64,000 bases of DNA from Sthenelais limicola (lineage: Eukaryota; Annelida; Polychaeta; Phyllodocida; Sigalionidae). The DNA is taken from assembly GCA_942159475.1 (NCBI GenBank), contig OW804102.1, forward strand, positions 20,092,684 to 20,156,683. The letters are read 5' to 3'. Position 1 is the stretch's first letter; each line of letters opens with the position of its first letter. Shown one piece after another: positions 2,600-27,500 of the stretch. Both the position numbers and the translations under genes were made by a program. The notes under the pieces were generated by a model, which was not told the DNA's origin, did not search any database, and worked only from the letters and a program-made list of their open reading frames with translations.

Positions 2600-4200
2600 A
2601 ACCTATGGACATCTTAATTGATTGATCTGTTTGCATCATAACAGTGTCCACGAACTGACAGTAAATGCGCTCATGCGATCATATGGTGAACGATGAAAGA
2701 TCCTAATCACTTGCTAATGAAAAATTAAAACCTTTTTAATGGCTTCTCTCCCAAGCCATAGTTTATTCTGATTGGCACACTAATGATTTGTTCTGAAAAT
2801 TGGGCAATACAGTTGTGCTTGGACATTTATCAACTATGCAATTCGAATCATAAATCATAATGTATCTTCTACAGTGCCAACCTTCTACTATTGTTGAAAT
2901 TCGTGGAAATCCCTGCTGTTCTTTGCCCTAAGAACGAGATTTTTTTATTTTGATTTTGAATTTTTTTATTCAGGACACAGACATTTCCATACGACAGTAT
3001 GAATATTCCCAGAATAGCCTGATTTTTAAATTTATTTTTAAATTACATCAAGATATTTCTAAGTTAACTCATAAATTTAGTACACAAAAAAGGAATAAGA
3101 AATAAGAAATAAGAAGTAAGAACGAAAAACTGAGTCTAAACTAGTTTTACAACACTGAATTTTTAAATTAAACATTATACCTGCTTAGCGACTGATCAAA
3201 CTATTCTAGTTTACTGTTACTTCTAATAGTAGTACAGTGATACAAATGGGTACATATCTGAATAGCATACAGATAGTTGCACAGCCAATTCATAGGTGCT
3301 CGTTCGTTGGCCATAGAGAGACCTAGGAATACCTTCAAGGTTTTTTCAGGTCTTCTAAACATTCATTTACTGTGCAACAGAGGGTTATTCGTGGCTATCC
3401 CTACTCGTTTGTAGGCCCCAGTGAGGACGGAATGCCGTTCGTTCGTTGAATTACCCCTCACCCTCAGACCACTCCTTCCCCCGCCATTTCGTTCAACAAT
3501 GCTACAATAGGATATGGATTCAAGTTTGCACCTTGATGTTGAGTAATATCACAGACTATAACTATTCTAGTTCTGTGGTAATATATAGCTTCCATATAAC
3601 AGTACCGGTAGGGCAGCTGCAGAGACAAACTTCGTAGAATCAGAATTACAAAATTTATGTAATTTTTACGAGGTTTCTTGTATATCTATGACACATCTGA
3701 GAGTGCACTGCTGATAGTGAAAACTATTATTGCTAGTTGTTAGAATGTGCCACTAGCCCGGGCCACTAGGCTTATTAGTAATTGTGCAATATCCTTATTT
3801 GTTAAGACAGATCTTAACATACCATATGATCACCTCTACAACTCTACAGCGTTGGGTGAAAGTTGTTCTATCTGGAGTATGTGAACAGATGGTGGTACCC
3901 CATACGAAGTTCTCAAAGGAAATATATAACATTGCTCACTAAATAAAAAAAGGGTCTTGTAGCTCCACAAAATCAATAAAATCTAAATTCGCTGACATGA
4001 TTATTATCCTCATAAACATTGGTAATTGCGGCCTGGACCTCATACAGAAAAATAACTATTATATGTGTAGGCACAATAAGGTAGACCTACTTAAAACCTT
4101 GACATTTTTTTATTATCTTTTACGCTTATAATGTAAGGTTAAAGGACTTTTAGTTTTTAGCATAAGCTTTAGATAAAACTCAGTGGAATATGTAAAATAG
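2600..4200. other. AT-rich stretch without recognisable genes
   Basis: No coding frame, RNA gene or clear repeat was recognised. A short run of AAGAAATAAG units occurs near 3093-3120. Confidence 0.45.
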
Positions 4201-4860
4201 AGAAGCTCGAAAAAAGATGTAATATTTCATTGCTGAGAATCATGTATAGTATGAAAGATAAGATGGTAGACAAAAGGGTCAATATAAGAGAAACCAGACA
4301 ACATGCTGGTTATGTATTTAAAATCGAAAAACCAACCAATGAAAAATTCAAACGAAGCCCATGCTACCAAGGTCCCCAGCCATGGAATAAGCTTGACCAC
4401 CGTCTAAGAAATGGAAAATGGTCCACTCTAAAGTCGTATTTAAAAGACAAAAACGACTGGATGTGAACGAATGGCCAGTTCGTGAAGAAAATGTCTAAGT
4501 GCAAATTATTATATGATGTAAAAATCGTTGAATGATTGACAAAATTCTCTGTAACAATGTTGCTTTTATTTACTCGTACAATTGATATCTATCACAAGAA
4601 TATCTTGCTCTGAAGAGAGGACGCCCATAAAGAAAATATGAAGGGAAAAAATGGTAATTTTGTACATAATCTGTTGAGTTGGTCGAAGGTAAACTAATCT
4701 GATAAAGTTAAAAATCTTAAAAATGTATTATGGTATAAGAAAGATCTGAGATATATTGTTGATTATTTAATATGTTTTCCCTTGAGTCTGTGAGCTATCA
4801 GCATGTATCAGCATTGAAATCAGCTCAATAAAATTTCTTTAAAAAAAATAATAGTTTGTT
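4200..4860 (+). mobile_element. 5'-truncated non-LTR retrotransposon, 3' end only
   Basis: The frame at 4230-4463 encodes a 78-residue tail whose middle (RSPCYQGPQPWNKL, then KSYLKDK) has the form of the C-terminus of CR1/L2/Jockey-type reverse transcriptase proteins, where an aromatic-G-x-x-x-W-N-x-L block precedes a short helix. About 360 bases of 3' sequence follow, then an AATAAA signal and an A-rich tail near 4828-4850. This is what 5' truncation during target-primed reverse transcription leaves. Coding for the rest of the protein is absent. Confidence 0.55.
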
Positions 4861-5870
4861 TACTTTCAACATGCATAGTATTTAACGTATAGCAATTTTC
4901 GTTAAAGGCATCCATTAAATTTGAAATCTACCTATAGAGCCTGCTTCTCAACAGAGAAACTTCCACTATTTAGCCTAGAGTTATATGAGTTATATGATTT
5001 TATAAGTTATGATCATGCAATGGGAGAAAGTACAGGCATTATTTATTGACATTTAATATCTCGAAAATAGCGTCAATGGTATACACATTCAAAAGCGATC
5101 GTCCATTTGAAGTCTTAAAATAGTATTGTTTCAATTTATAATTTACATAATTTTAAGGAGGTAATTTCTCTCTCAGATCATTTATATCGGCAACCAACCT
5201 CCAGTTACTACTAAATCAAAATGTGATGCTACCATAGGAAATTATTAATGTAATCATTCTGTTATCATTGATTTCTTCGAGGACGGCATTTTAGAATTAT
5301 TCGAAAATAATAGATCAATATTGATCCTATTCTGACAGGTTCGCAGTCAAATAGCAATGTGCTTTCCATGACTTTTAGGGAATTAAATCAATACCAACTC
5401 TTGAACAATGTCACATATTGATGGCGGTGATCAGAACTTTAGTTTCCCCTTTTCTTTCTTTACTTGTTCCTTTATTCTTTATCTCCGTCTCTTGGTTTCA
5501 CTTAGGTCCTGAGCTCTTTCAACGGTTTTAAGTATGTCTGTCTGTATGTATGTAGTATATATTTATTTCCGTCAGTGCTACAATAGTTTTTCAGGAAATG
5601 GATATTTGAAAATATAATTTTATCTTCGGTAAATAAATGCCTGTCTTCCTGGCTACCCTTCACATGAATATTGCGTGGAAGACATCTTAATCGTTCAGTT
5701 GTTGGTTTAACAATCTGGGAAGATTTTGATACATATTTTGTAGTATTATTGTTAGTTCTATTCCAACTAGTTACAAGAGATTGGAAAATTTGGTTTATAA
5801 AGAGCATGTGGTCAGACGAACTATTGATAATAAAGACAATAATGTAATTGTAAAATTTTATATTCTAAAG
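4860..5870. other. AT-rich stretch without recognisable genes
   Basis: A 101-codon minus-strand frame at 5502-5807 has no family resemblance and AT-driven composition; I do not call it a gene. Confidence 0.4.
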
Positions 5871-7552: not shown

Positions 7553-8260
7553 CTATAGTGACTGAGTGGAACTGGTGAGGATTTTATAATTAGATGAAGT
7601 TCTCTGGAGGGTGAAGAAAGCTCTGAGCACAACCACTTGTCCGACACCCGCCATGAAAATCACTCCTGCCTCAAACAGCGACCACCATTGCACCTTATTG
7701 TTCAAATCTTCCGCAGCATGTCGTCCTTTGGCTTCGTTTAACCTATAATCGGTTTGGTAGTTAATAATCATCATGCCAGCTCCATGTATGATCTCTAGAG
7801 CTTCCTCAATGTGCGTATTGACGGTGGGTCGTTCGTCCCCTCCCTCCACTGCCAGGGTGTCAGTGTCTTTAGCAGGCCTTAGCGAGAAAAAGATGATTTT
7901 ATGAGAAAACGTCGAGAACTCGTTGCTAAAGCAGAACTCGTACGTTCCTGGCGACGTCTCGAATGTCACGACGTCGCCGGTCTGTTTCACCTCCTTGTAG
8001 AGGAGTTTCGCGTTTGGTGACGTCAGCTTCGCGTCGACGTCACCGTGACCCCCTGCGAGAACCGTGTACTCGAACACGTGTGGCACCGTCCCTGTGAATG
8101 TCTGGTAAAAACAGCTTTCTTCATTATCTGGAAGTTCAAAGGTCAATGAATGTCGTGCTGTCCGTGTTGGCGATGCTGATAACACACTGATGTGTAGCAT
8201 CAATACAAATATTACACATACATGTAGATCTATCCGTTTGCATTGTCCTATAAAATCCAT
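7553..8260 (-). CDS. TMED/p24 family transmembrane cargo receptor (gamma-like, TMED3/7 type)
   Basis: A single uninterrupted 235-residue protein. Residues about 8-30 form a signal peptide (VIFVLMLHISVLS). Residues about 40-125 form a GOLD domain with the two cysteines typical of p24 proteins (ESCFYQ and YEFCFSN). A coiled-coil stretch follows (HIEEALEIIHGAG, then AEDLNNKVQWW) and one membrane helix (about 193-213) ends in RAFF. The membrane-proximal block resembles TMED3/TMED7 most. These proteins are known to cycle between ER and Golgi and to load cargo into COPII/COPI vesicles. The tail (about 20 residues, ending STQSL) keeps the FF-type motif but lacks a C-terminal dilysine signal, so COPI retrieval may be weaker. 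Vertebrate relatives have introns. An intronless copy could be a retrogene, but the frame is intact. Confidence 0.88.
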   Translation of the reverse strand: MDFIGQCKRIDLHVCVIFVLMLHISVLSASPTRTARHSLTFELPDNEESCFYQTFTGTVPHVFEYTVLAGGHGDVDAKLTSPNAKLLYKEVKQTGDVVTFETSPGTYEFCFSNEFSTFSHKIIFFSLRPAKDTDTLAVEGGDERPTVNTHIEEALEIIHGAGMMIINYQTDYRLNEAKGRHAAEDLNNKVQWWSLFEAGVIFMAGVGQVVVLRAFFTLQRTSSNYKILTSSTQSL

Positions 8261-10029: not shown

Positions 10030-10353
10030 CTTTTTGGACAGACTTTAGCATTCAACTGACGTGCTCCAACACGCCATTCCGTATTGGGCACTTCCACTGA
10101 AAGGAATTTAGTTTTAGGTCTTTATTGGATGTGTTTCAATCGGAATCTTAGGGTTTAAAGAAGAGATTTCTGATCATTTCCGATTGTCTGGTGAGGTTTC
10201 TCACTGGTCGGATATAATCCTGTTGACAGCAAATCGAAGATTTATCTTGTATCTTAAAGTATTAGACAGTAGCAGAGCGATACATACAATTGTATGTATA
10301 GCTCTGACAGTAGAATGTGTGAGACCATGAAATTACTTTCCTCTGAAATGCCG
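10030..10353. other. Intergenic stretch, no feature seen
   Basis: Flanking sequence between the foldback MITE and the hAT-like element; nothing recognised. Confidence 0.4.
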
Positions 10354-10424
10354 CAGGGGCGGATCCAGGGGGGGGGGGGGTTCGGGGGGTTCGAACCCCC
10401 CCCCCTTGGGCCCCATGATGCCCT

Positions 10425-10660: not shown

Positions 10661-10977
10661 CACTCTATGAGGAAATGGCCCATTTTTCACATAGTATTAT
10701 TAAACCAACATAAAACCAACAACTAATGGCTACTGCTACTGTCCCAAAGCTTACTACACATATAGTGCACTGGCAAGGGGGGGGGGTCGGCGACATCCTG
10801 ATCCCCCCTCAAAATTTTCATAAGACTTAGTGCCCTTTTGAATAGCCCAAAGTGCCCTCTTTTACAACCCACTATGCCCCTTTTCGGTTGTAAGTGTTAC
10901 AACCAAAAAGTGTCTTTTTTTATGACCAAAAGTGCCCATTTGAATAGCCAAAAATCTTTTTTATATATATATATATT

Positions 10978-11714
10978 GTATTTTTATTCTGGTCCATTCA
11001 TTAAATCAATTACATCATCCAGAAAATAGGAAGGTGACCTCTGCCTTAGCAGGTCTACCAGGTTCTTCCTAAATAGCTCTATTACAATTTTACTTCATTT
11101 ATAAGAACAACATAGCGATGTGAACATTATTATGTCTGGACCATTGCCAAAATACATACATATCAACAATTATTATAAAAACCCAAAAACCCCCTACCCC
11201 GGCTCGTTAATAGTTATGTTTCATAGCCTTCTTTAGAAGCAATAAACCGTGTCCTTCTTTGTCCTTTCCATGATTGTCATTGTTCTTACTATCATTGATA
11301 GTATTGTTCATTTTTCCTACTGTCTCTAGTTAAGTAATATCACTATATAGAGCCAATCCCTAAACCCAAATACTTAATTTCTAAGACATAATAATAAGAG
11401 TACATGCAACGATCATAATATGTATGGCATACTAAATTGTTACGTTGGTATAGTTACCGTTATATCGGTCTTCAAAATCTAAGGACTTGTTTGCCTTATT
11501 TGCGGGTTATTCTCCACAATCCCGATTTCTCTTAATTCACAAAGTCAAACATCATTACATATTAATAGTCAATAAGTTCAAAAAGTTCAAAAAGTTCACA
11601 CTTTCCCCGTCTATATAGACTTAACAATCTCGAAAAGTTTCGTGCTATATCATAAAAGACATCGTAACCAATTCTTATTAAATATAGTCCTTTTGTATCT
11701 CAAGTTATAGCTAC
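10978..11714 (-). other. 3' UTR of the LINE
   Basis: Non-coding sequence downstream of the RT stop codon, ending at the AT-rich tail near 10977. A short tandem AAAAGTTC repeat lies near 11577-11600. Confidence 0.6.
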
Positions 11715-14624
11715 TCATTCTCGCTCATCTGCTAGAAAAATATCAAAATCATCCAGATATGTCGACCGAAGATAATGTCTAAATTGCATTCTTGTCTTTG
11801 TCATTTGGACATCATTGGATAAGTTATTCCATAATTCTGTCATTCTATAGACATATGATTTCTTAAAAATTTCGTTCTTTGGTCGCGGCACAACCAATTT
11901 CTTTCCCTTTGCCAATCCTCTCAAATTTATTTTCCTGTTATCTACATTTAATTCATCTCTCGTACGCAAGAATGCGATATCTAGGAGATGGCTATTTCTT
12001 CTAGTTTCCAAAGTCGGAATATTCAATTCTTGGTGTACTTCCTTTGTACTTGTCAATTTTGGTAATTTTAATATTATTTTAAGGGCTGAATTTTGAGTTG
12101 TTTGTATCTTTTTTAAAGTGGTCTGAGCCGCTGACCCATAGAACAAATCCCCGTAATCAATCACTGGGAGTATCATTGTTTTAAACAACAATAAAAGTGT
12201 GCTTCTGTCAAATATATTATAAAGCTTGGACATAGAATAAATCTTTGCCCTAACACTAAACAATTTCTTTCTAAGGAAAACATTATAATTCAGCCGATTA
12301 TCCAGCTCTATTCCCAAATATTTATATTCCGGAACATTTTCCAGCGTCTGCTCCGAAATTCTGTAATTCACAACATTGTTTGGGTCATTTTTTGATCGAA
12401 TGGTTAACGTTTTGCACTTATTAATATTTAGCGAGATTTTATTTACCGAACACCACCGAACAATTTTGTCTAGATCATCTTGCAGTTTCAAATTTACCGG
12501 TTCTCCTAATTCTCTCTCCATGAACAAAACAGTATCGTCAGCAAAAAGCTGCACGTTACATTGCTTCACAACCTCTTGTAAATCGTTTATATACACTATG
12601 AACATAAGCGGCCCTAAACTTGTTCCTTGCGGAACCCCGCATGTCACTGGCTTCAGGGAGGAGAGTTCTCCATTTAAAACTACCCTTTGCGTCCTCCCGC
12701 TTAAATAATCTCTAAACCATAATAATTCCTTATCTCTTACTCCAAAGCTCCTCAATTTTGATAATAAAATTTCGTGATCCACCGTGTCGAAAGCTTTTTT
12801 AAAGTCTAAAAATATTAAATCCATTGCTCTCTTTTCATTTAAATTTTCATATACTTTTCTTAGCAGTCTATCTAAAGCGTTATTAATCGATCTACCCCCC
12901 CTGAAGCCGTATTGCTGATCACAAAGAAGTTCATGCCCCTCTAAATATTGGGCCAGTTGTTTTTGTATACATATTTCAAGTAATTTAGCCGGTAATTTGA
13001 TGCACGAAATAGGCCTGTAGTTGCCAGGCATACATTTTTCCCCATCTTTGTACAAAGGCGTTACATTTGCCTGCTTAAAATCTAAAGGTATCTCGGCATA
13101 ATCTACTGTCATATTAAATAAATAAGCAAGTTGCTTCTTAAGTGCTAATAAACATTGTTTAAGGATCTTTGTGGGCATTAGTTTGATCCCCGAGGCCTTG
13201 TAATTACCAATTTTATTTAAAGCCAGTTCTACATCAAGTTCGCTAATCCTTTTAAATTGAAACTGTATACCTGGTTCAGTTCCACGATGAATTCTTTCCC
13301 TTTCTAATTCAATGCTATGGTTGCTCTTAATCTTTTGAGCAAGCTCCGGCCCTATTTCCACAAAAAATTCATTTAATACCCCTGCTGCCTCTTTACCCTT
13401 GGCGCTCTCTCCATTTTTTGAGGTTATAGTAACTTCATCTGCACTATTACTCTTTGTTTTATCTGTAATTAAAGGTTTCAACAGGTTCCAGAACTTATGC
13501 GGTTCTCCTTTCTTTTCTCTTATCTGATCGCGAAGATATATATCCTTAGCCTTCCTTATACTCGTAGTTACCTTGCCTCTCAGTGATCGCGCCTTTGCCC
13601 AATCCTCTTTTGTGTTTGTTAATTTTGCAATCTTAAATGCCTTGTCTCTAGCTTTGGTTGCCTCAATGATATTTACATCATACCACTCAGGGGTGACTCT
13701 AACTCTATTAAACTTTTTTACGGGGCACATCCTATCGACATATTTTTCTATCCTTGAAATGATCATATCCCATGCTGTATTTACGTTTGTGGTCTCATAA
13801 AGCCCACTCCAATCTAAATCAGTCAAAATATCTTTTAATATTCTAATATCTAAATTTTTAGTATTTCTAGCTTCAAAAGATTCAACTTTATAATTTGTTC
13901 TCTCTTTCTTAATTTGTACAAATATTGGCAGATGGTCACTCAAGTTAATTTCTATCGTGCCATTTACACTGACCCACTTCCCATTTGTGTAGATATGATC
14001 AATTGTAGAGATTGACGTCTGACTGACCCGGGTGTGGGTCTTGATTAATTGCTGAAGATTATGTTTACCTAATAAGGCTCTAAATCTATCTGCATTTGCT
14101 GTCGTGCCTTCTTCTATAATTTTATCATCATAATTTATGTCCCCCATTATGAATATTTCCTTTGTGGTATCAAGTTTACATAGAGTCTCATCAATGTGCT
14201 CAATAGCCTGAGCCAACCCCCCCTGAGGTGGCCTATAAACATTTAAGCATACCTTATCCCTAACACACTTTTTCGACAGACCAAAAATCTGTATTTCGAT
14301 GTGTTCATTCGACACCTCGTATTCTTTGAACGATTCATCTATGTCCAAAGATTTGTGTACATATGAAATGAGTCCTCCTCCTCTTCTTTTACTTTTCCTG
14401 TCTTTCCTAATAATATTGTAATCTTGAATGGATAATTTATCATTCCTAACATTTTTTGATAACCAAGATTCCTGAAACGCTAGAACATGAGGCGCAGCCT
14501 CTAGAATAAATTGGCTGACTTGCTCAAACTTCGGTAAGATGCTCCGAATATTCCAGGACGCTAATTTAAGGCCCTTCAATTTTTTGAAAGCCTCCGTATT
14601 TATGCTTACACTTTTCTTATCCAT
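11715..14624 (-). CDS. LINE ORF3: AP endonuclease-reverse transcriptase
   Basis: An intact 969-residue protein. Residues about 19-240 are an exonuclease III/AP-type endonuclease with SWNIRS (N25), QESW (E52), MGDINYD (D162), TIDH (D209, H210) and SDH (229-231), so the catalytic set is complete. Residues about 480-780 are the reverse transcriptase: TPLYKDG, NYRPIS, FLDFKKAFDTVDH (605-617), GVPQGTSLGPL and FADD (694-697). The C-terminal 180 residues match the thumb/tail of CR1-like proteins and end in the WNNL block. The endonuclease nicks the target and the RT primes on it. The start at 14624 is the first ATG of the open frame and leaves a complete endonuclease domain. There is no RNase H. Confidence 0.95.
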   Translation of the reverse strand: MDKKSVSINTEAFKKLKGLKLASWNIRSILPKFEQVSQFILEAAPHVLAFQESWLSKNVRNDKLSIQDYNIIRKDRKSKRRGGGLISYVHKSLDIDESFKEYEVSNEHIEIQIFGLSKKCVRDKVCLNVYRPPQGGLAQAIEHIDETLCKLDTTKEIFIMGDINYDDKIIEEGTTANADRFRALLGKHNLQQLIKTHTRVSQTSISTIDHIYTNGKWVSVNGTIEINLSDHLPIFVQIKKERTNYKVESFEARNTKNLDIRILKDILTDLDWSGLYETTNVNTAWDMIISRIEKYVDRMCPVKKFNRVRVTPEWYDVNIIEATKARDKAFKIAKLTNTKEDWAKARSLRGKVTTSIRKAKDIYLRDQIREKKGEPHKFWNLLKPLITDKTKSNSADEVTITSKNGESAKGKEAAGVLNEFFVEIGPELAQKIKSNHSIELERERIHRGTEPGIQFQFKRISELDVELALNKIGNYKASGIKLMPTKILKQCLLALKKQLAYLFNMTVDYAEIPLDFKQANVTPLYKDGEKCMPGNYRPISCIKLPAKLLEICIQKQLAQYLEGHELLCDQQYGFRGGRSINNALDRLLRKVYENLNEKRAMDLIFLDFKKAFDTVDHEILLSKLRSFGVRDKELLWFRDYLSGRTQRVVLNGELSSLKPVTCGVPQGTSLGPLMFIVYINDLQEVVKQCNVQLFADDTVLFMERELGEPVNLKLQDDLDKIVRWCSVNKISLNINKCKTLTIRSKNDPNNVVNYRISEQTLENVPEYKYLGIELDNRLNYNVFLRKKLFSVRAKIYSMSKLYNIFDRSTLLLLFKTMILPVIDYGDLFYGSAAQTTLKKIQTTQNSALKIILKLPKLTSTKEVHQELNIPTLETRRNSHLLDIAFLRTRDELNVDNRKINLRGLAKGKKLVVPRPKNEIFKKSYVYRMTELWNNLSNDVQMTKTRMQFRHYLRSTYLDDFDIFLADERE

Positions 14625-15565
14625 TGTCCTTAAAGGTCACATATTCTTCATTCAAAGAGGAGGATCCCTCACACATATGAAACATTACACAATAACAGTA
14701 CATGGGTTTCGTCCCTAAACAACTTGGGATCACCCTGCTCACAAACAGTTTCAAACAATTAATTCCTAACACGAACATTTCCAGTATTATCACTACTGGG
14801 CTACCACTTTTGGGGTAGATCCTTGAAGGGAACTTCTATTTTACATTCTCTTTTGAGAGATATACATTCAAATTATTCACTAAACATTTGTTCGTACGTA
14901 CTAGAGTCATACATATTCTCTTTAACTTGATATTTCATAATCTGATAATTATGCAAGAGGGGGAAGTTGGTCCATGTGAGACCATCAATCGATTTTAGGT
15001 TCGAGCGAGCACTAATATCGACCATGATCACATAGGGATATTTCCTCTGTCCACATATCAATATAAATACCAATATCAACCATGATCTCTTACATTAAGT
15101 CTAAACGACCTCAAAATAGTCAATTCTGTATGCCTCAACAATTTTCTTACTTTTAGCTCTGAATGTTTAGCTTTCCATATCGTCATTATTTACTATTCTC
15201 TATTTCAGTGTGGGGTAATAGCCGTATTGTCCGATTCAACTCATATTTTTCTTATTTTCTTTAAAGTCAAGTATATATTGTAACACTACCTCAAGTATTT
15301 AGTGTCCCTTCATCATTTCATGGAACCTCTGGAAGACTTGTGATGCACCGGATTTAGTCTGTGTGGCCCTCAGGCTTTTTCCCTTTTCAGTCTATATTTT
15401 GTAGACTCTCAACTCTATTTTGCCTTGATTTCTTGGACATCATCGTGGAAGGGGGGTGCCAAGAAGTCTGTCTTATACCTGGTGAGACCATTTCGAGTTC
15501 GGGTTCGAGCGAGCACCTGTTACTACTCTGACCCCACCAGTATATACAGGACCTTCACAGCACCA
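14625..15565 (-). other. Long inter-ORF region of the LINE
   Basis: 941 non-coding bases separate the SGNH ORF from the endonuclease-RT ORF. Two diverged copies of a motif of about 35 bases occur at about 14978-15012 and 15482-15518, both containing GAGACCAT and GGTTCGAGCGAGCAC. Two related copies of ATATCRACCATGATC occur near 15016 and 15073. The gap is too long for simple termination-reinitiation, so ORF3 may use an internal entry signal or a separate transcript. Confidence 0.6.
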
Positions 15566-16291
15566 CTAAATCTTTCCATACGCTGCCACTAACCTCTCAG
15601 CTACTTTTATTTTCAACTCCTGGGTGAGGTGACATCCGTCATCAGCCAAGAGGCCGTAGTGATTCTGGAATTTCATTCTTTTGGTAGTTTTGTGTTTTCT
15701 TGAGGCCCGGTGAGGATGAATAAGCGAGCACAAGTATGGTGTCGGTAAATGGTGACTCAGATTAAATCGTTTAACACTATTATTATATGCAAGTATTTGT
15801 CGATTAAGAAGTTCTTGATCTTCTTCTATTGCCATTATCTTATGCGGTGTTAGGATCTTCTTTAACCTCCAGTTGTGTACTGCCGAATGATTATTGTATT
15901 TGACTAGGTCTATGCCAAACGTTGTGGCAAATATTATCTTCGGCTGTGGAGAAAGGGACGAAGGTAGTGTCTGCGTGATAATATTTATCGCTGAAATCAT
16001 ATCATCGGTTGCAGCCGTGTCGACCTCAGTCTCACTTCTGACTCTAAGCCGTACCTCCTTGGATTCACGATCTTTTTCTGTAATGTTACAAATTCCGGCC
16101 ATTACCATAATACATTTTGGTCTACACAACATCAAACAGTTCTTAGCTCCTCTTACCATTGCTGTGGTGCCTGCGCCAGGCTGGAAATATACCTCCGTGT
16201 CTATTCCTGGTGCGATGTTACGCAGAATAGGCTTGAGGCCCGCTCCCCTCGAGTCACAAATTATGAGTAGTTCTTTCCTGTTTAAGTCCAT
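15566..16291 (-). CDS. LINE ORF2: SGNH hydrolase/esterase-like protein
   Basis: 241 residues starting 54 bases after the ORF1 stop. It shows the SGNH blocks: IICDSRG (block I, Ser14 nucleophile), QPGAG (block II, Gly39/41), MAGICNIT (block III, Asn69) and ADDGCHLT (block V, Asp218 and His221). The catalytic Ser-Gly-Asn-His set is therefore present, although block I reads CDSR rather than GDSL. Esterase domains of this fold are known in ORF1 proteins of CR1-like elements, where they are thought to act on lipid or other esters during retrotransposition; the substrate is unknown. Here the domain is a separate ORF between ORF1 and the RT ORF. Confidence 0.8.
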   Translation of the reverse strand: MDLNRKELLIICDSRGAGLKPILRNIAPGIDTEVYFQPGAGTTAMVRGAKNCLMLCRPKCIMVMAGICNITEKDRESKEVRLRVRSETEVDTAATDDMISAINIITQTLPSSLSPQPKIIFATTFGIDLVKYNNHSAVHNWRLKKILTPHKIMAIEEDQELLNRQILAYNNSVKRFNLSHHLPTPYLCSLIHPHRASRKHKTTKRMKFQNHYGLLADDGCHLTQELKIKVAERLVAAYGKI

Positions 16292-16344
16292 TTTGTCCGA
16301 CTACCAGTACTCGCTTCGCTCGTCGGGTATAATTCTACTCTGTC

Positions 16345-18807
16345 TTAGTTATCTCCTTGCAATTCGGCTCTTATTTCATTCAAGATAGTTCCAAATCTGT
16401 TTTCTCCCACGAATGATCGGAGCTTCAACGGAACCCGGCCGCCATTGGCTATTTGGACGCCCCGCACCCAACGGCCCACTCCCCACTTTTTGGAGTTGGT
16501 GATTTCATAGAATTTGACATTTTCAGGTGCCAGCAACAATTCCTTCATTTCTTTATTTTTAGAGAATTTTAGAGTGGCGATTTCTTTCAGTATGTTTTCC
16601 TCTACTCGGCCCCATTCCTCCATTTGCTGCGGAGACATTGCCGCGTCCATCTTAGTGCCTAGCGATTTGGCGTGCGCGGGACTACGCGTGCTGCGTATCC
16701 TACGCGCCATGTCAGGGTTTTCAATGAAGCGCGCTTTCCGCCATTGGTATGCATGTTCGGCCGAGTGAAACAACTTTGATTCATAATCGATGTCAATTCT
16801 GTAAAAATTAGAAAATGGACTGTGGGTTCCATGAAATCCCACCCCTCCACCCTCTATCGGGAAGGTAACAACGTCTACTGGCCTACATCCCTTAGGTAAA
16901 AGATGCATGTCGTCCTGCGAATATACCTTGTCACCTATCTTTACATGACCCAAGATAAGATCAGCTGGGACCTTTTTTAGACGTAAGAGCTTGTGGCAAT
17001 CAACCAGCATTTTGTAGTCTTTCTCGTGTTGGTCAATCGTGATTTTATTAAACCATAACCCAATCCTTGTCCTTCTTCTAAACTCTTTTGCATTGTTTAG
17101 TACAGTTCTTTTCGCCTTGGGGCTTGCCATTTCAATGTAGATCGATCTAGTTTTCCCCTCCTTAGGGATTCCTACTCTGTAAGCATCTACTATCTCATCT
17201 AACTTGATGTCCAGTATGGACGTGAATAGGTCGCCTATGAAATATTTAGTCTTTTCCTTCTTCTGGTCAGTTAAGATATTGGTACGGATTGGATATTTAT
17301 CCCATCCCTCTGGAACTTCTTCAAGAATTAAATGGGTGGACCCGTCTACGCTAGTCTCCTTTTGCAGAGTTGGGAGGCCTAGACTTCGAACGTCCCCTAA
17401 TTCCCCATTAATTTTGTTCAATTTTCCATCCATGTCTTTTAGACCTTTCTGGAGCGACTTCAATTCTTCCTGCCCTTCTTTCAAGGTTTGATTAATTTCG
17501 CAGATCGACTCATTTATGTCATCCTCAAGAGTTTTTAAATCTTGTGTGTTTTGCTTTCTATTTATGCTCTTTTTTGCTTCCTTCTTTTTAAGAGTTTTGG
17601 ATTTGGACTTAGATTTGGATTTACTCTGTTTAATCAGATGTCCCACCTTAATCATTCGTTCTTGTGATTCAGAGATTTTCTCGTTTTTGCCATTTCTAAT
17701 TTGTTCGAGCTCAAGGTGAAGAACCTCGATTTGTTCACTTATCTGTTCTGATTCTTTTCTACATTTTTCTGAGGATTCCTCAACTGTTTTCATTCTGCCT
17801 TCGAGGCCTACTGCTGTTTTTACCTCTTCCACACTCGTTCCTACCTTTGACATAAACATGAGCCTCTCTAAACCAATCGATTTAGAGCTCTCAGCTATTT
17901 TTGGAAAAGTTTCTTCTACATTCTTTATCCTGTCTGCTAATTTTCTATATCGAAGTTCTGCCCAGGCACTCGTGTTATTTACTTTCCTATTCAAGTGTGT
18001 TACTTTCCTGTTCATGGATGAGTTTTCATATTTCAACTCCTTTTGTAATCTGAGCTCCTGACCTATTTTCATTTGTTCGAGAACTTTCCCAACTATCATG
18101 TCTACAAAATCATTCTCTTTGTCCAAACATTTTTCATCGATTTTAGTGCTACTTTCTGTTGTTGGACCCCGGGTGTTAGTAACATTTGTTTGCGGTAATG
18201 GTAATTGATCAGATGTTAGAACAACACTAGCCGCGATATCATTTCGCACTGGCTTTGACGGAGAATCAGAGTGTTCCGTGGTCAACCCTTCGTCGGCAGA
18301 ATGCATCGACATGTCATCATCACTGTCACTGTCACTACAAATGAAAATGCTATTTCCCTCTGTTACAACTTCAGAATTCACTGCATCGGTACACGAAATT
18401 TGTTTGGGGGGTGAGGAGGTATGATCTTGTAAGTTGTTATCACTAGTTTCACCATTTACCGAGTTATGTCCATTGACCTTGGTTGTGACAGCAGATAATT
18501 CATTTGACGACGTAGAAGACGTCATGTCACTATCAATGTTTTGGTCGCTGTCACCTCCACCTTCAGAATCCTCCTTACTTGATTTATCTCCATCACATAC
18601 CTCTTTTTTGAATGTAACCACAATGTCTGATTCATCAAGATCATTTTCCTTCATTTCTCCATCAATTTCTTCAACTATCCCTACCTTAACGGGGGTCTGT
18701 GTCAATCGTTGGCTTACACATTCCATAGTCATGTCGATCAACGACTCAACGACGTGGGACACGACGTCAGCCATAGCTATGGGTTCGCTGTATGTTGTTC
18801 TTCTCAA
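16345..18807 (-). CDS. LINE ORF1: coiled-coil, RRM-like and C-terminal NADAR domain protein
   Basis: An intact 820-residue protein. Residues 1-220 are acidic and Ser-rich (likely disordered). Residues about 230-480 are heptad-rich coiled coil, broken by a basic KSKSKSK tract (395-405). Residues about 490-600 resemble the RNA-binding (RRM-like) part of L1 ORF1 proteins (LILEEVPEG, then DAYRVG, then RSIYIEMASPKAK). Residues about 656-816 are a NADAR (YbiA-type) domain: HSPFSNFY, HSAEHAYQWRKARF (Glu684), an alpha-helical region with EEW, KELLLAPE, KKWGVGRW (Trp775), GENRFGTILNEIR. NADAR enzymes are known to act on NAD-derived ADP-ribose or on ADP-ribosylated substrates. The first two parts suggest an RNA-packaging protein. 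A NADAR domain here may remove ADP-ribose marks placed by host defences; that is inference. Confidence 0.85.
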   Translation of the reverse strand: MRRTTYSEPIAMADVVSHVVESLIDMTMECVSQRLTQTPVKVGIVEEIDGEMKENDLDESDIVVTFKKEVCDGDKSSKEDSEGGGDSDQNIDSDMTSSTSSNELSAVTTKVNGHNSVNGETSDNNLQDHTSSPPKQISCTDAVNSEVVTEGNSIFICSDSDSDDDMSMHSADEGLTTEHSDSPSKPVRNDIAASVVLTSDQLPLPQTNVTNTRGPTTESSTKIDEKCLDKENDFVDMIVGKVLEQMKIGQELRLQKELKYENSSMNRKVTHLNRKVNNTSAWAELRYRKLADRIKNVEETFPKIAESSKSIGLERLMFMSKVGTSVEEVKTAVGLEGRMKTVEESSEKCRKESEQISEQIEVLHLELEQIRNGKNEKISESQERMIKVGHLIKQSKSKSKSKSKTLKKKEAKKSINRKQNTQDLKTLEDDINESICEINQTLKEGQEELKSLQKGLKDMDGKLNKINGELGDVRSLGLPTLQKETSVDGSTHLILEEVPEGWDKYPIRTNILTDQKKEKTKYFIGDLFTSILDIKLDEIVDAYRVGIPKEGKTRSIYIEMASPKAKRTVLNNAKEFRRRTRIGLWFNKITIDQHEKDYKMLVDCHKLLRLKKVPADLILGHVKIGDKVYSQDDMHLLPKGCRPVDVVTFPIEGGGVGFHGTHSPFSNFYRIDIDYESKLFHSAEHAYQWRKARFIENPDMARRIRSTRSPAHAKSLGTKMDAAMSPQQMEEWGRVEENILKEIATLKFSKNKEMKELLLAPENVKFYEITNSKKWGVGRWVRGVQIANGGRVPLKLRSFVGENRFGTILNEIRAELQGDN

Positions 18808-19005
18808 AATTAAACACCCTTGTACGAATGGATTTCCACAAAGTCCACCGATGTTATCTTGGACCGTTTACGAAGCCTCTTGTTGTTTTTCGCTTCAGTA
18901 TATTGGTTCCTTCCAAGGAAATAACCCCATTTGACTCCCAAGATTTGGTTAGCCACTCGTGGTCATTTTCCCGCTCTCATACATGGAACCAAAGGTGTCT
19001 TAATT
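18808..19005 (-). promoter_or_regulatory. 5' UTR / presumed internal promoter region of the LINE
   Basis: About 200 bases between the ORF1 start and the resumption of hAT-like minisatellite sequence. LINEs normally carry an internal promoter here; no specific box was recognised. Confidence 0.4.
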
Positions 19006-19009
19006 TCTT

Positions 19010-20350
19010 TTACAACCAAAAGTGCCTTGCGGTAACAGCTGTAAAAAGCTGTTAAAAGAACTTATAAAATGCTGTTTCCATAGAAACAAAATAAAATGAA
19101 CACTTTCCATGTGTGATTAAATACTGTATTTTGACATTTAGTCAGTCAGATCTTCAGAAAATGCACATTAGGCAGGTCTACAAATTTGTACAATTAGCAA
19201 TCATGCAATGTGTTGTCCTTTAACTTCTGCTAAATTAGACTGAACAGAGAATTATTAATATATCAAAGTAACATTTTCTGATGATCTCTCCCTTGTATGC
19301 CTTTGTGCCCCTCTGGCTCATTTTTGGGGGATGGACTGATGTGCCCTTTTTATTTTGACCCCCCTCATTTTAGACCCTAGATCCGCCCCTGGTGCAGGTT
19401 ACATACATTGTGTTGATCTGTAGTTGTAGCTGTCTGAAATAAATAAGTTTGTGAAACAGAGCTTGCTGTGGGTACTCTCAGTTGTACCCATTTAGTAGGC
19501 AAATCTATTGGGAAATGCTGCATATTTGGGAAAAAATAAAATTGTTTTTACAAAAATACCGAAAAAATAGTGGCATTTTTCAAGATTCTAATTAAAAATG
19601 CATCTGCTAAATATGTCTAGGACTACTTCACCTGAAAAGATAAACTTCAACTTACATGAATTTTGGAAATTCTATTGATTTCCTTATTTTCCGCATAATA
19701 AAATTTGTCATTTGTCATATCTCATTAGAATTTATCAACCCCACATTTAAAATTGGTTTGGTATTTATTCCTAAAATCTATTCAGTTCTGTCTATTGGGC
19801 CTAGATTAAGTTTGTGAACATGGTTGTCGAAATAAGTATTAGAAATATCTATGGACTCTTCACTATTTATCTGTGACTAAATACATTTTTTGTGCTCCCA
19901 AACGCACCAAATGCTCCAAAATTGCACCTTAAATTCCATTTTTTTCCAGGGGGGGCATGCCCCCTGACCCCCCTAGTGGTTTCACAGCCAGCTACACCCA
20001 GCCTGGAAATGTCCCCCCCCCCCCCAGTGACCCCTATACGGGCCTTGACACATCATTGTCAATATCTATTATAATTTCTACATCATCTGGAATGTAATAA
20101 GCAGCAATTCCTAAGCTAAAATATTGTTAACATACATAGGCCTACACTAAAAAAAATATGCTCATCCACTCAAAATGCAGCAGAATTCATCATCTAAGGT
20201 GTATGTTTTGAAAAATTCCCCAAATGAGAACCCTCCCGGACCCTCCTCTGGGGGGCTTCATGCCTTCAGCACTCAGTCCCCAACATGTGCCCTTTTCTCA
20301 GACCTGAACCCCCCCCCCCCCCTTCAGGAAATCCTGGATCCGCCCCTGAA
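19010..20350. repeat. Right part of the hAT-like element, with a nested family B element
   Basis: No coding capacity. An inverted pair (CAGTCAGATCTTCAGAAAAT near 19144 and CATTTTCTGATGATCT near 19272) marks a short copy of the element seen at 2090. A hAT right end finishes at 19391 and the outer right end at 20348. C-runs lie near 20014 and 20308. Confidence 0.6.
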
Positions 20351-21522: not shown

Positions 21523-24500
21523 CTGAAAAAGAATTGGAGCTCTATCTCATACCTCACAATATCATTGTTAGAGAGTAGCAATATCTAAAATGATTAAAGA
21601 AATTATATCTCTGAACGGAATGGATGGCGATAGAAGCATTGAAGACAATTAAGGGACACAATCAATTTAAGAATAAAATGGTGATGATACTTATGATAAG
21701 TAGATGTCATGATGTAAAATAATTGTCTTATATACATGTACAGGAATAGCTAAATATATCGGTACATTGCTACCTGTTGCAACGTGAAAATGACGCACCA
21801 CTTTCGCCGCTATTTACGGATACAACAGGCTTCATGCAACACTGGAAAAATCGTTTTCTTAATATTTCCTTTATATAATGTTAATGCTACGATATCACCA
21901 AAATGGGGTGAAACGGGCCCCAATGGTTAGGACGGGGGCTAATCAGTGACATGGTGGGTCACTGGAGGCAGTAGGTAGAGGCAGTAGGTAGTTGTTGCTA
22001 GGCTGGAATGTAATAGGTGCCCTCCACTATCGGCAAACTTGTAGGATTGCCAATAACGTCACCAATAGATTTTCTATTCGCCACTATACTTGTCGGTCAT
22101 TTGATAACAATCTATTTGCCGCTCTATTGGCTGTTCTATTCACCGCTACTTGCCGATAGTGGAGGCCCCCTATTAGGGGCAAGGTCGACAGGATGTTTAA
22201 GATTGGAGAAAGCAGAGTTTTCTTCTTAAATGAAGATGATAGCAGCCAAAACAAATTGATAGCAGCCTCATACCGTTTGGCTAGATCAAAACTATGCTGA
22301 TGTGAGGCGTCGAGATAAGAGAGAGAATACCAGAGATTGGTGAGTTGTGACTCAGCATCCAGGCAATGGTTGCCTGGTTATTTTGACTTTGAAGTTAGGG
22401 GTGGACCTTGGTGGAAGTGGATACATATTATCATAGCAGGGGGAGAGGGTATCTTTCTTTAGGGGAAAGTGAACCATCCTTCATAAAGTTTATTTGGAGC
22501 TTGAGGTGTAGAGAGCCTTGTTTTGTATCAGTTTTCAGTATTCCAATGCGTGGGCCGTACTACCGGGCTCCAATGACATAAAAGTAATAGAAGTAAATGT
22601 ATGTGATGTGTTACTGAGAAACAAGTTGCAAGAAATGATTTAGAGATACCATCATATTTGAAACTATGACATCAAGCGGATTCCAAAAATAGTAAACATT
22701 GAGGACATCTAATAAGTAGTATTTCTATATATTTATGTTTGAAAACAAGTTAGCAATATTTCTGGGTGGGAAAATACTGGTAAAGTAACTAAATATACTT
22801 TATATATTCAATATAATGTCTTGAAATTTGGTACATTAATACATACTACATGAAGCGCTAAACATCCGAAAAAATGAGAACATTCCAACAAAGAGATTTG
22901 AAAAATATGAATTTTGCGACTTGTGACTTATTTTCCTGTAACACATCACACATATGCGGTTCAGATGTCATTGTTCAGTGGCTGGTTGGCAGCATTGATG
23001 AGGATGGGTGATCCATAATCAATAATTGATAACACGGGGGCCTTGATTATTGGGGAAGGGGAGAGGGTCTCTCAGGTAGGGTTTAAAAGCTTGGTACAAT
23101 TTAAATACGAGTCATACTGAGTGATCACAAGCTATAGTGACATAAGATTAAGTCTCGGCCACCACGAGAGTGTGTGGTCGAGAATAAACGAGATGCGCGG
23201 TCACGTGACTGGTACACTTCAGCGGGATTATCGATTGACTAAAGAGGTGGCTTCAGCGAGTCGGTAAGTAAACTTCGTTTTTAGGACCATCTGGTCTGTT
23301 TACAAAAATTTTTACATTATTAATATTGTTCTGAGAGGTACAGCATTAGCCGAGCAGCTTTTGCACGTTGTTTTCACGGGGATTTTCACTTAAATCTTAC
23401 TTTCGGTTCTGCTTGCAGGGCCTCCCACGTGTTAACGCTTGATCAAGACCTCATTCCGTTACGGGAGCCGCGTTGCTTCGGTGTCACTAATACGGCAAGA
23501 GACTGAGTCATGGTCAGAAAGACCGTCAAAAAGACAAAATCAGCACAATCACTGGAAGAACAGTCAGAAATTATTGCTCACATTTTGTCGGAACCAACTT
23601 CTAGCCGCAGAGGCAGATCAGCCAAGATGGCGGACGATTCGGATAAGAACGGCGCCTCGGGCGAAAATAAGGGGGAAGGCACTGATAAGCCTTCTGACGA
23701 CAGGGAAAAAGACAATACACCCGTCGACGAGCCCCCAAACTGGTTCTTAAACTGGTTAAAATCGCAAGAAGCGAACAAAGAAAAAGTTACTAATAATCCT
23801 AAGGTAACAGAAGGCTCAGCAAAGAAATCTAGCGCCGCTGGAGGCCCGCCTAAACAAGCGCCAGTTAAGTCCTTGTCAAGCGCTCCGTCAGGTAGTCAGA
23901 CGGTAAAAGCCATAGTTCATCATGAACGTGATCAGGTATCAGAATCGGAAGATGGCACCTTCGGTGACGATGATGAGTTATATACGGATGATCCATTTGA
24001 GGAAGCAGGTCCCACAGAGACCAAACTCCGCGAGCTCATGGATAAGATCGAAGGAAAAGGGGAAGCGCCCCCCATTTCAGAATCACTTGCTAGGGTGGTG
24101 AAAGATGCAGCCCAACAACCTGATAAAGATAACGAACTGCACAAAATAGCGATAAACGAGAAAAGAGTAGAGAATCTTAAATTTCTAAACCCGCCTATGC
24201 TTAATAAGCCCATTTGGCAAAATGTGAAAAGATATCACAGAGTATTTGACCAAAAGTGTCAATCCATGCAATGCTATCTAGACGCAGCCATTTCTCTCAT
24301 AGCCCCAGCAGCGGAAGCTATCAAAGCCAGGGAAAATGTTGATAAACACTTAGGACAAAAAGGGGCTCATGTCATTCAGGGACTGAGGCTTATGTCTTTC
24401 GTCCATCAAGAGATTGCTCAACGCAGAAGAGAAGCCCTTAAATCGTGGGTTCACCCCAAATACCACAGGATGTGTAGAAAGCCAGAGGAAGAGAGTTCCC

Positions 24501-27500
24501 TCCTCATGGGTGACAAGTTTGTTGATCTCACCAAAGAATGTGACGAGGAATCGGCAGCTATGGCCAAAATAGCAAGACACACCCCGTATGATAGGAACAA
24601 CAGGGGTAAGAGATTCAATAATCGTAGAAGCAAAGGTCGTGGCCAAGGCAGAGGGAATTGGAATCCCAGGTTCGGACAGCCAAATCAGAACAACTATCAG
24701 TTTCAACAACCTTATCAGCAACAACAGTATTCCCAGTGGCAACAACCTAACTGGCAGGCCCCGCAACAAGCCTTCCAGCCACAGGCACCTTTCCAGCAAA
24801 ACCAACCCAGAGCCCAGAACTCGGGTTTTCGGGGAAGGGGCGGGCAGAAACAATAGTTCCTGAGGTAAGGCCGCTCCTTAAAAATGTTTCAACGTTCAAG
24901 GCTGGTTCCACAGCTTTTCATGATTTAAATTGGTTGCAAACAACGAAAGATCCGTGGGTTCTTAATGCTATCCAGGGAATTAATATCCCGTTTGTAAATC
25001 TCCCGTGTCAACGCACAAAGCCTAGACCCTTTAAACTAAATATGGCGGAATTCACAGCAGTAGACGCAGAAGTAAACAAATTACTCGAGAAAGGAGCGAT
25101 TGAACCGGCGGTTCACGCACCAGATCAAATCATTTCGAATGTTTTCACCAGACCAAAACCTGATGGATCTTTCAGAGTCATTCTTGATTTAACTTGGTTA
25201 AACAAATTGGTACTTTACGAACATTTCAAGATGTTTTCACTTCAAACCGCTATAAACACTGTTTCTCCTGGGTCCTGGTTCGCTTCAATTGACTTAAAAG
25301 ACGCATATTATTCTATTCCTTTAGCTACAGAAGATAGAAAGTTTTGTCGGTTCCTTTGGAAAGATAATCTATTTCAATATGTAGGAATGCCTATGGGCTT
25401 GGCGTGTGCCCCAAGGTTCTTTACAAAAATCCTAACTCCGCCTTTTGCAAATTTGAGAAAAGATGGTCATATGTGCTTTGCATTTTTAGACGATTCCTTG
25501 ATCATGGCGTCAAACCCTTAGCAGTGTGCTGCCTCAACTCTAGCTTTAGTGGACACGTTACAAAATCTGGGATTCTACATCCATCCAGATAAGTCGATCT
25601 TTAAGCCGACACAGAAAATCCAATTCCTAGGTTTCCTCATTGACTCTGTAGAAATGACTGTTTCTCTTCCGAGGGACAAAATTGTAAAAGTCACAGAAGC
25701 TATTATAGAATTAAGAAACAAACCTGTTTTCAGTGTGAGAGATGTAGCAAGGGTTATAGGTCTTTTAATTGCGTACAAAGTAGCAATTGACTATGGCATG
25801 GTTCATACAAAGTGTTTAGAACAAGAAAAGATTAAGGCTCTTGCAGTCAACAAAGGAAATTTTGATGCCACTATGGTTTTATCAGAACAAGCTTGGTTAG
25901 ACCTTCATTGGTGGGAGAAAGCTGTAACTTGGAGAATTAGAAAAATTCGCTTGACTAACCCAGATATTGTCATCACCACAGACGCGTCCTATGCCGGTTG
26001 GGGCGGATCGAGAGACCAGTCTGTGTGTGGGGGTAGGTGGTCGATGAACGACAAACAAAATGACCTTCACATTAATGTTCTTGAGCTACTAGCGGTTCTA
26101 TTTTCTTTACAAAGCCTTTGCAGAGTAAGAGACTCAGTAATAAAAGTGCTCTCAGATAACACAACGACCGTGGCTTATATAAACAATCAAGGAGGGACTA
26201 GGTCCATCATGTGTAACGTTATTGCCAACAAGATCTGGACTTGGGCTGAGGAAAATAATAACTGGTTACTAGCAGCCCACATACCGGGAGTTCTGAACAC
26301 GAAAGCAGACACCGCGTCACGCAAGTTTGCGGACAACCTAGAGTGGGAGTTAAACCCAAAATTGTTTTCTCTTATTTCCTCAAAACTAGGAGTTCCAAAT
26401 TTCGATTTATTCGCTACAAGGGCTAATTCTAAATGTAAGTCATACTGCAGTTGGCACCCGGACCCAGGAGCGTTAATCATTGATGCTTTTTCATTCAAAT
26501 GGTCAGGTAAAAAATTCTATCTTTTCCCACCTTTCAGTCTGGTGGCACGCTGTCTCCAAAACCTGGAAGCGGATCTTACAGAGTGGGCTATCCTCATCGC
26601 CCCAAACTGGCCGGGCCAACCGTGGTATCCGCTGTTGCGTCAGAAAGCAACCACAGTAGTGTCTCTGAGAACTCAGAGAAAGAATCTTGTCCACCCCGCA
26701 GTAGAAAAATGTTGCGAGGAAATTACAAAAACAAGCCTCTTGGCATGCCTCTTTTGCAACAAAAACTAGAAAAATCGGGTATTTCTCAAAAATCCATTGA
26801 ATTTATCGCAAATGCATGGCGTCCGGGTACAAAGAAATGTTACACCACTTACATTAAGAAATGGCAGGTATTTTGTATCCAAAATAATTGTAGTCAACTG
26901 AGCCCCTCACGTAGACAGGTGACAGATTTTCTGCGAACCTTAGCAGAAAAAGGCGCTGGTTATACAGCAATAAACAGTGCGAGGTCAGCTCTCTCAAAGG
27001 TGTGTATTCCCTGGGGTGACACGAATATAGGTAAAGACGAAATCGTTTGTGACCTTGTAAAGGCTTCTTACAACCTCAACCCACCTAAACCCAGATACGA
27101 ACAGATGTGGGACGTTCAGAAAGTGTTCAACACTCTTGTTCAATGGGGTCCAAATTCGAAATTGTCTATCAATTTTCTCACTTTAAAATTGATCATTCTG
27201 ATTCTTCTCACTACGGCACACAGAGGCCAAACGCTGCTAGCACTCAAGACAGACAAACTTGTCTGGCGTGAGGACCAGGTAGCTTTCAAATAAGACACCC
27301 TTTTGAAACATAACCGGTTAGGAGATCCCCTAGACACGGTAAAACTTTACTTTTACAACGATAACCAAAGGTTGTGTGTAGTAAGATGTCTAAGAGAATA
27401 TCTGAAAAGGACGGAAGAATTACGAAAAAGTGAAACACAACTGCTGATCAGTGCGTTCAAACCTCACAGAAAGATCTCCAGGGACACGATATCGAGATAT

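Follow-up and report, generated by a model that had tools for sequence, protein, structure and literature searches.

Organization of the locus

We analysed a stretch of 64,000 nucleotides from the genome of the polychaete Sthenelais limicola (contig OW804102.1, positions 20,092,684 to 20,156,683; hereafter the window), in which a long interspersed nuclear element (LINE) on the minus strand carries a NADAR domain at the end of the protein encoded by its first open reading frame (ORF1). The element consists of the NADAR ORF1, an ORF resembling SGNH hydrolases, and ORF2, in this order (Table 1). Pfam profiles detected an APE endonuclease and a reverse transcriptase (RT) together in ORF2, as expected of a LINE. 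The genome searched comprises 1.13 Gb in 161 contigs, and the loci mentioned below are designated by L numbers. The window copy, L108, and L109 are near-identical and begin at the identical 5' base within unrelated 5' flanks, and the window copy and L109 also share the 3' end at the (TA)n tail. L134 is a 5'-truncated copy: it begins at element position 2593 and continues to the final base, with the full 3' end retained. An initial annotation, made from the sequence alone, had described an intact LINE with a NADAR-ORF1 fusion. The shared 5' ends, the shared 3' ends, and the 5'-truncated relative bear out that it is one unit, and the fusion stands as described; the SGNH-like ORF between ORF1 and ORF2 had been overlooked. 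Full-length ORF2s of three further copies match at 99-100% identity, and two of the three are free of stops; the family has thus been mobile recently. A long target-site duplication was not found in the two copies tested, in which only 6-nt and 7-nt words were shared near the ends.

The NADAR domain was recognized by several profiles. PF08719 matched residues 661-817 of ORF1 with an E-value of 3.5e-21 and 76.6 bits (cut-off 35.1), in agreement with the clear NADAR domain that the initial annotation had placed at the end of ORF1. TIGR02464 (NCBIfam), a curated model for a riboflavin-intermediate N-glycosidase, matched with 88.5 bits (cut-off 73.7), and PHROG 1017 matched with an E-value of 1.8e-27. 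The sequence matches in the PDB were 8bau from Phytophthora nicotianae (E 5.2e-9) and 2b3w, the YbiA protein of E. coli (E 7.7e-7), and the structure predicted for the domain has a NADAR fold that matches both. The motifs HSPFSNFY (662-669), KKWGVGRW (773-780), and GENRFG (801-806), as well as Glu684, are located where they had been annotated; residue numbers follow that earlier numbering, which counts from the listed TTG start. The earliest ATG corresponds to residue 12 (window position 18774) and an in-frame stop precedes the frame at 18870, so that the ORF1 protein (ORF1p) is 809 aa long. A coiled coil and an L1-ORF1-like RNA-binding part had also been proposed to precede the NADAR domain. 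The coiled coil gave weak profile matches below the cut-off. The RNA-binding part is plausible by eye, without support in the sequence searches: the RNA recognition motif and C-terminal domain of L1-type ORF1p had no Pfam or PDB sequence match, and the confidence of the model is low in that part.

Conservation of the NADAR domain in related elements

A six-frame search of the genome with ORF1 gave 59 matches, the window included, from 55 scored of 6,532 candidates; by manual count, 47 of the 59 extend to residue 816 or further. Twenty loci of 10 kb were hand-picked from these matches, and all of them contain pieces of the NADAR ORF1, the second ORF, and ORF2 in that order, with several frames decayed or partial. 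The ORF1 alignment has 20 rows, namely the window and 19 loci, L109 being excluded for its frameshifted ORF1. Leaving aside the near-copy L108, identity to the window protein was 52-72% in the NADAR domain and 9-35% in the N-terminus. In the region that precedes the NADAR domain, identity was 49-81% in 18 of the 19 other rows and 100% in L108.

Ratios of nonsynonymous to synonymous divergence (dN/dS) were calculated by NG86 for the pairs with a NADAR dS of 0.03-1.6, that is, the 11 of 190 pairs in which dS was usable, and amounted to 0.05-0.15 in the NADAR domain; the method is simple, the pairs share members, and dS is near saturation in several of them. The N-terminus gave 0.52-1.17 where dS was finite. 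Values for the coiled coil ranged from 0.04 to 1.33, both extremes coming from near-identical pairs, while the pre-NADAR region gave 0.06-0.07 in pairs with dS of 1-2.2; of two near-identical pairs, one gave 0 and the other 0.28, and four pairs lacked a finite dS. The NADAR domain is under purifying selection. Single copies show decay, such as the frameshift inside the NADAR domain of L109 and the Asp in place of Glu684 in L117, as would be expected of a passive passenger or a chance match. However, we regard such a status as extremely improbable, given the dN/dS of the domain, its higher identity among families whose N-termini have diverged so far, and the genome search with PF08719, in which all 150 scored matches (of 5,561 candidates) were above the cut-off, at 103.7-119.1 bits.

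In the alignment with 8bau, Glu684, Lys691, Lys714, Trp732, Glu768, and Trp775 are equivalent to Glu43, Lys50, Lys75, Trp89, Glu125, and Trp133, respectively. The equivalents of Glu43, Lys50, and Glu125 of guanine-ADP-ribose hydrolases are all present in the window element. Among the 20 ORF1 rows, Glu684 is found in 19 and each of the other five residues in all 20. In 13 NADARs of other families, the equivalents of Glu684, Lys714, Trp732, Glu768, and Trp775 are invariant. The YbiA family is characterized by a catalytic Glu, not Asp or His, at the last-strand position, and Glu768 occupies this position in 20/20 and 13/13 sequences. Comparison loci were also hand-picked: of 99 found, 58 were taken to ORF extraction, and 49 of these, from viral contigs or bacteria, were aligned together with P0001 and the window (51 rows). 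In this alignment, the columns of Glu684, Lys691, and Trp732 are invariant, and that of Glu768 is Glu in 45 of the 51. Loss of the active-site residues in all other copies had been named initially as the sign of a passenger; instead, they are kept in 19-20 of the 20 window-type ORF1s and in all 13 other genomic NADARs, apart from Lys replaced by Arg at position 691 in six.

NADAR domains in other LINE lineages

By reading of the table, 148 of the 150 scored PF08719 matches have no internal stop; the window element, at 76.6 bits, is not among the 150. Six of these matches were hand-picked with flanks, and eight more were taken as bare NADAR stretches; all of them except L132 make up the 13 other-family NADARs considered above. 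In L128, L129, L130, and L131, a NADAR ORF1 is followed by an endonuclease-RT ORF2 (that of L129 ends early), and in L133 by the start of one. The ORF2s of the first four share 25-29% identity with the window ORF2. An SGNH-like ORF is also present in L129, L130, L131, and L133, and L128 has no ORF of at least 120 aa at its place. These five matches represent ORF1s from no fewer than three additional deep LINE lineages. The search for the same fusion in other LINE ORF1 proteins, which had been proposed as a check, found it in window-type relatives and in these lineages. In L130 (reverse complement 3713-4969) and L131 (3144-3800), long open frames with an internally repeated peptide lie between the second ORF and ORF2.

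The sixth flanked match, L132, is a standalone NADAR ORF of 162 aa (G000:C1:94855254-94855679, minus). NADAR matches were also seen in 162-aa open frames at G000:C1:89380390 and C1:66983187. These three frames possibly represent a host gene family or captured copies.

For the NADAR tree, 26 of the 58 extracted loci were offered, 24 passed the length filter, and P0001 was added. In the resulting tree of 44 rows, the 13 window-type NADARs formed one group (100/99), and they stood together with the five other LINE NADARs, L132, and L018 apart from the 24 remaining viral-contig, bacterial, and P0001 rows (97/91). The branch of L132 is long. L018 (IMGVR_UViG_3300033571_028100) is a viral-contig NADAR that groups with the LINE and standalone NADARs, and its own joining branch is weak (87/54). 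The ORF2 tree used 13 of 120 listed ORF2 relatives; in its 25 rows, 12 NADAR LINEs and four unnamed proteins were separated from nine others, including turtle, medaka, and amphioxus proteins and two unnamed RTs (97/97), in a tree with long branches, uneven composition, and no clade-named references. NADAR may have been acquired once, long ago, within a larger LINE clade; alternatively, the domain may have been exchanged between LINEs.

The RT motif of ORF2 is of the GVPQGTSLGP type; the L1 form is RQGCPLSP. Among the 120 ORF2 relatives listed, those from named animals are RTs of birds, turtles, fish, and amphioxus. This motif type and these relatives favour the CR1/L2 side over the L1/Tx1 side, and the element is probably a non-Tx1 LINE. 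ORF2 scored 48 bits with L1 ORF2p and up to 552 bits with the best match in the protein collection, two scores from different databases.

Relation to known NADAR elements and systems

The initial annotation was not aware of NADAR as a described LINE feature, and here it is superseded by a 2025 Ectocarpus paper, in which NADAR domains of the YbiA family are described from the ORF1s of several Crassostrea gigas Tx1 LINE families and from Gypsy elements of Ectocarpus (PMC12477816). The oyster elements are similar to the one studied here in carrying a YbiA-type NADAR within a retrotransposon protein, likewise in ORF1, whereas the Ectocarpus Gypsy elements have theirs at the start of Pol. The oyster LINEs differ from ours in being called Tx1, a difference drawn from the description and not from a sequence comparison, and the available part of that paper mentions no SGNH ORF for them. 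CR1/L2 LINEs with an esterase-type ORF1 also have an SGNH-like protein upstream of ORF2 (PMC3905857; PMC4120745), but in our element this protein is a separate second ORF behind the NADAR ORF1. In Table 1 of PMC4120745, as available, neither a NADAR domain nor a NADAR and SGNH pair is listed for 448 elements of the Jockey superfamily. In the DarT-NADAR and YarT-YbiA toxin-antitoxin systems, NADAR proteins with conserved catalytic residues oppose the ADP-ribosylation of nucleic acids (PMC11543638; PMC11125620). Unlike these systems, the three ORFs of the element had no ADP-ribosyltransferase domain in a Pfam scan.

As far as our literature searches show, the new features are a NADAR ORF1 in a LINE with a non-L1-like RT, its SGNH-like partner, the evidence of selection, and the spread of such ORF1s over several deep lineages within one genome. 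Should the domain be active, this would indicate that an animal uses ADP-ribosylation as a defence against retrotransposons, and LINEs would have a defined enzymatic counter-measure. Judging by the count of NADAR matches in a single genome, LINEs that bear a NADAR may be very successful.

Possible function of the NADAR domain

ORF1 proteins such as that of L1 are ascribed a role in coating LINE RNA. This role of ORF1 has been called "presumed" (PMC3905857). The explanation that we propose, in which we place about equal parts of belief and doubt, is that the C-terminus of ORF1p is a functional NADAR-type ADP-ribosyl N-glycosidase that removes ADP-ribose from the nucleic acid of the element as a counter-defence. 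ORF1p would assemble with the element RNA, and the NADAR enzyme would be concentrated on, and carried in, the retrotransposition particle. The enzyme would strip ADP-ribose, most likely on guanine bases, off the RNA or cDNA of the element or off nicked target DNA, and would thereby undo an ADP-ribosylation with which the host blocks reverse transcription or integration. The domain, its predicted fold, its conserved catalytic positions, purifying selection, and the linkage to ORF2 in several LINE lineages are directly supported by our results. Known NADARs hydrolyse ADP-ribose from guanine (PMC11543638; PMC11125620), and changes at the Glu125 or Lys50 equivalent of the E. coli C7 NADAR cost guanine de-ADP-ribosylation, while a Gln at the Glu43 equivalent inactivates the enzyme and substitutions there fail to rescue cells (PMC11543638). 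NADAR domains also occur within polyproteins of invertebrate RNA viruses (PMC9503650). The host genome contains PARP-domain matches in 23 pieces.

Several observations weigh against this explanation. In contrast to 8bau, the window element, as part of a LINE ORF1p fusion, has Thr718, Glu736, and Ser772 in place of Arg79, Arg93, and Asp130, so that none of these three residues of the pyrophosphate-contact type is retained. Arg93 touches the pyrophosphate (PMC11543638), and at position 736 the 20 window-type elements have Glu (18) or Asn (2). The same position is Lys or Arg in 49 of the 51 comparison rows, the window being one of the remaining two, and the 13 NADARs of other families have Lys (8), Ser (2), Glu (2), or Asp (1). 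A structural overlay of Glu684 and Trp775 on the NADAR active site had been proposed initially; the predicted structure has the NADAR fold, and Glu684 aligns with Glu43 of 8bau. Trp775 is matched to Trp133 by sequence alignment, falls where the model has a predicted local distance difference test score (pLDDT) below 50, and corresponds to a column that is Trp in just 39 of the 51 comparison rows. The Lys691 equivalent is Lys in seven and Arg in six of the 13 other-family NADARs, and the corresponding Lys-to-Arg change leaves the C7 enzyme active in vitro and does not rescue cells; Ala in place of the Glu43 equivalent lowers its activity in vitro only slightly (PMC11543638). Some NADARs that are active on guanosine-ADP-ribose in vitro fail to protect cells from DarT1 (PMC11125620). 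An activity that ADP-ribosylates DNA at N2 of guanine is reported from clams (PMC11209040) and may not apply to this host, and a genome search for a Scabin-like guanine ADP-ribosyltransferase gave no match, though no control genome gave one either, which leaves the search uncontrolled.

The substrate may have changed in these elements, in which the catalytic set is kept while one pyrophosphate contact is charge-reversed; the difference is suggested by the predominance of Glu at the Arg93 equivalent. With Glu or Asn at this position, binding may also have changed, and the domain could be a binder and not an enzyme, one that either retains ADP-ribosylated nucleic acid or protein and directs the particle to PARP-marked nicks, or connects the ribonucleoprotein (RNP) with host RNA factors. 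A precedent is the nematode protein SNA-3, which uses NADAR domains in an RNP setting, contacts the cap-binding complex, and is sensitive to mutations in its NADAR, although its authors leave an enzymatic role open (PMC9303266). We consider a binding role rather unlikely, as Glu768 and Glu684 rank with the most conserved residues of the domain and a pure binder would hardly need them.

A role in RNA processing or small-molecule metabolism is also rather improbable in our judgement. The targets of hydrolysis would then be NAD-derived products that arise in RNA repair, RNA with an NAD cap, or signals in the form of cyclic ADP-ribose, and not ADP-ribosylated macromolecules. Processing of RNA intermediates was suggested for the retrotransposon NADARs in PMC12477816, and a role of this kind would agree with the match to the riboflavin-related model TIGR02464 and with a pocket that differs from 8bau at three mapped positions. 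However, riboflavin intermediates would make little sense in a retrotransposon, and a domain fused to ORF1 more likely has a nucleic acid close by as its substrate. Returning to the counter-defence explanation, a broader version of it is tentative and somewhat doubtful: ADP-ribosylation of nucleic acids at guanine would be a genome defence in this animal lineage, several deep LINE lineages would carry an RNP-borne NADAR that removes it, analogous to the NADARs of phages and RNA viruses, and the SGNH-like protein would belong to the same accessory set.

Second ORF, spacer, and surroundings of the element

In 17 aligned members of the second ORF, the DSRG, GIC, and D-G-x-H positions, including Ser14 and Gly66, are invariant; the block-III Asn of SGNH proteins is replaced by Asp in the four that belong to other lineages. 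The top PDB match of a profile of the 17 was the GDSL-like lipase 3p94 (whole-sequence E 0.023, aligned over the third block), which is also the top match listed for a group of L2 esterases (PMC4120745). Pfam Lipase_GDSL matched one of the 17 (E 0.078), and the window member had no match. We therefore call the second ORF SGNH-like, a putative hydrolase. The spacer behind it contains the motif GTGCTCGCTCGAAC twice on the minus strand, about 0.5 kb apart, with 0.09 matches expected by chance. Pairs resembling GTGCTCGCTCGAAC with up to four mismatches are found in the spacers of L108-L118 and L127, while the spacers of L119-L126 have no such pairs and only stray single matches.

Table 1. Parts of the NADAR LINE and positions in the window; residues are numbered from the TTG start.
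Feature	Position	Strand	Basis
Whole LINE, 8017 bp, (TA)n tail at end	10962..18978	minus	copies with common ends and unrelated flanks
5' untranslated region (UTR), 204 nt	18775..18978	minus	
ORF1 from first ATG, 809 aa	16345..18774	minus	
Coiled-coil-like ORF1 region, residues ~245-480	17368..18075	minus	weak profile matches below cut-off; bounds by eye
Conserved pre-NADAR region, residues 490-640, presumed RNA-binding	16888..17340	minus	identity and dN/dS
NADAR domain, residues 661-817	16357..16827	minus	profile and predicted-structure matches
Glu684 codon (Glu43 of 8bau)	16756..16758	minus	
Lys691 codon (Lys50 of 8bau)	16735..16737	minus	
Glu768 codon (Glu125 of 8bau)	16504..16506	minus	
Trp775 codon (Trp133 of 8bau by sequence alignment; model stretch with pLDDT <50)	16483..16485	minus	
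Second ORF, 241 aa, SGNH/GDSL-hydrolase-like	15566..16291	minus	invariant positions and weak profile matches
Spacer, 0.94 kb, conserved motif repeated twice (14999-15012, 15503-15516)	14625..15565	minus	
ORF2, 969 aa, APE-type endonuclease and RT	11715..14624	minus	PF03372, PF14529, PF00078
3' UTR with (TA)n end	10962..11714	minus	

Around the element, 22-nt inverted arms with 86% complementarity lie at 10349-10370 and 19375-19396, and GTGCCCTTTT-like units occur on both sides. These arms and units suggest that the LINE lies within an older repeat resembling a DNA transposon or a satellite. A second, broken-looking retroelement at 23510-27293 (plus strand) contains an RT (PF00078), a segment that matches Dam methylase below the threshold, and additional ORFs, and appears DIRS/Ngaro-like by eye. 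Likely host coding sequences are located at 7553-8257 (minus strand), for a p24/EMP24 family protein, and at 35925-37106 (plus strand), for a glycosyltransferase family 11 protein.

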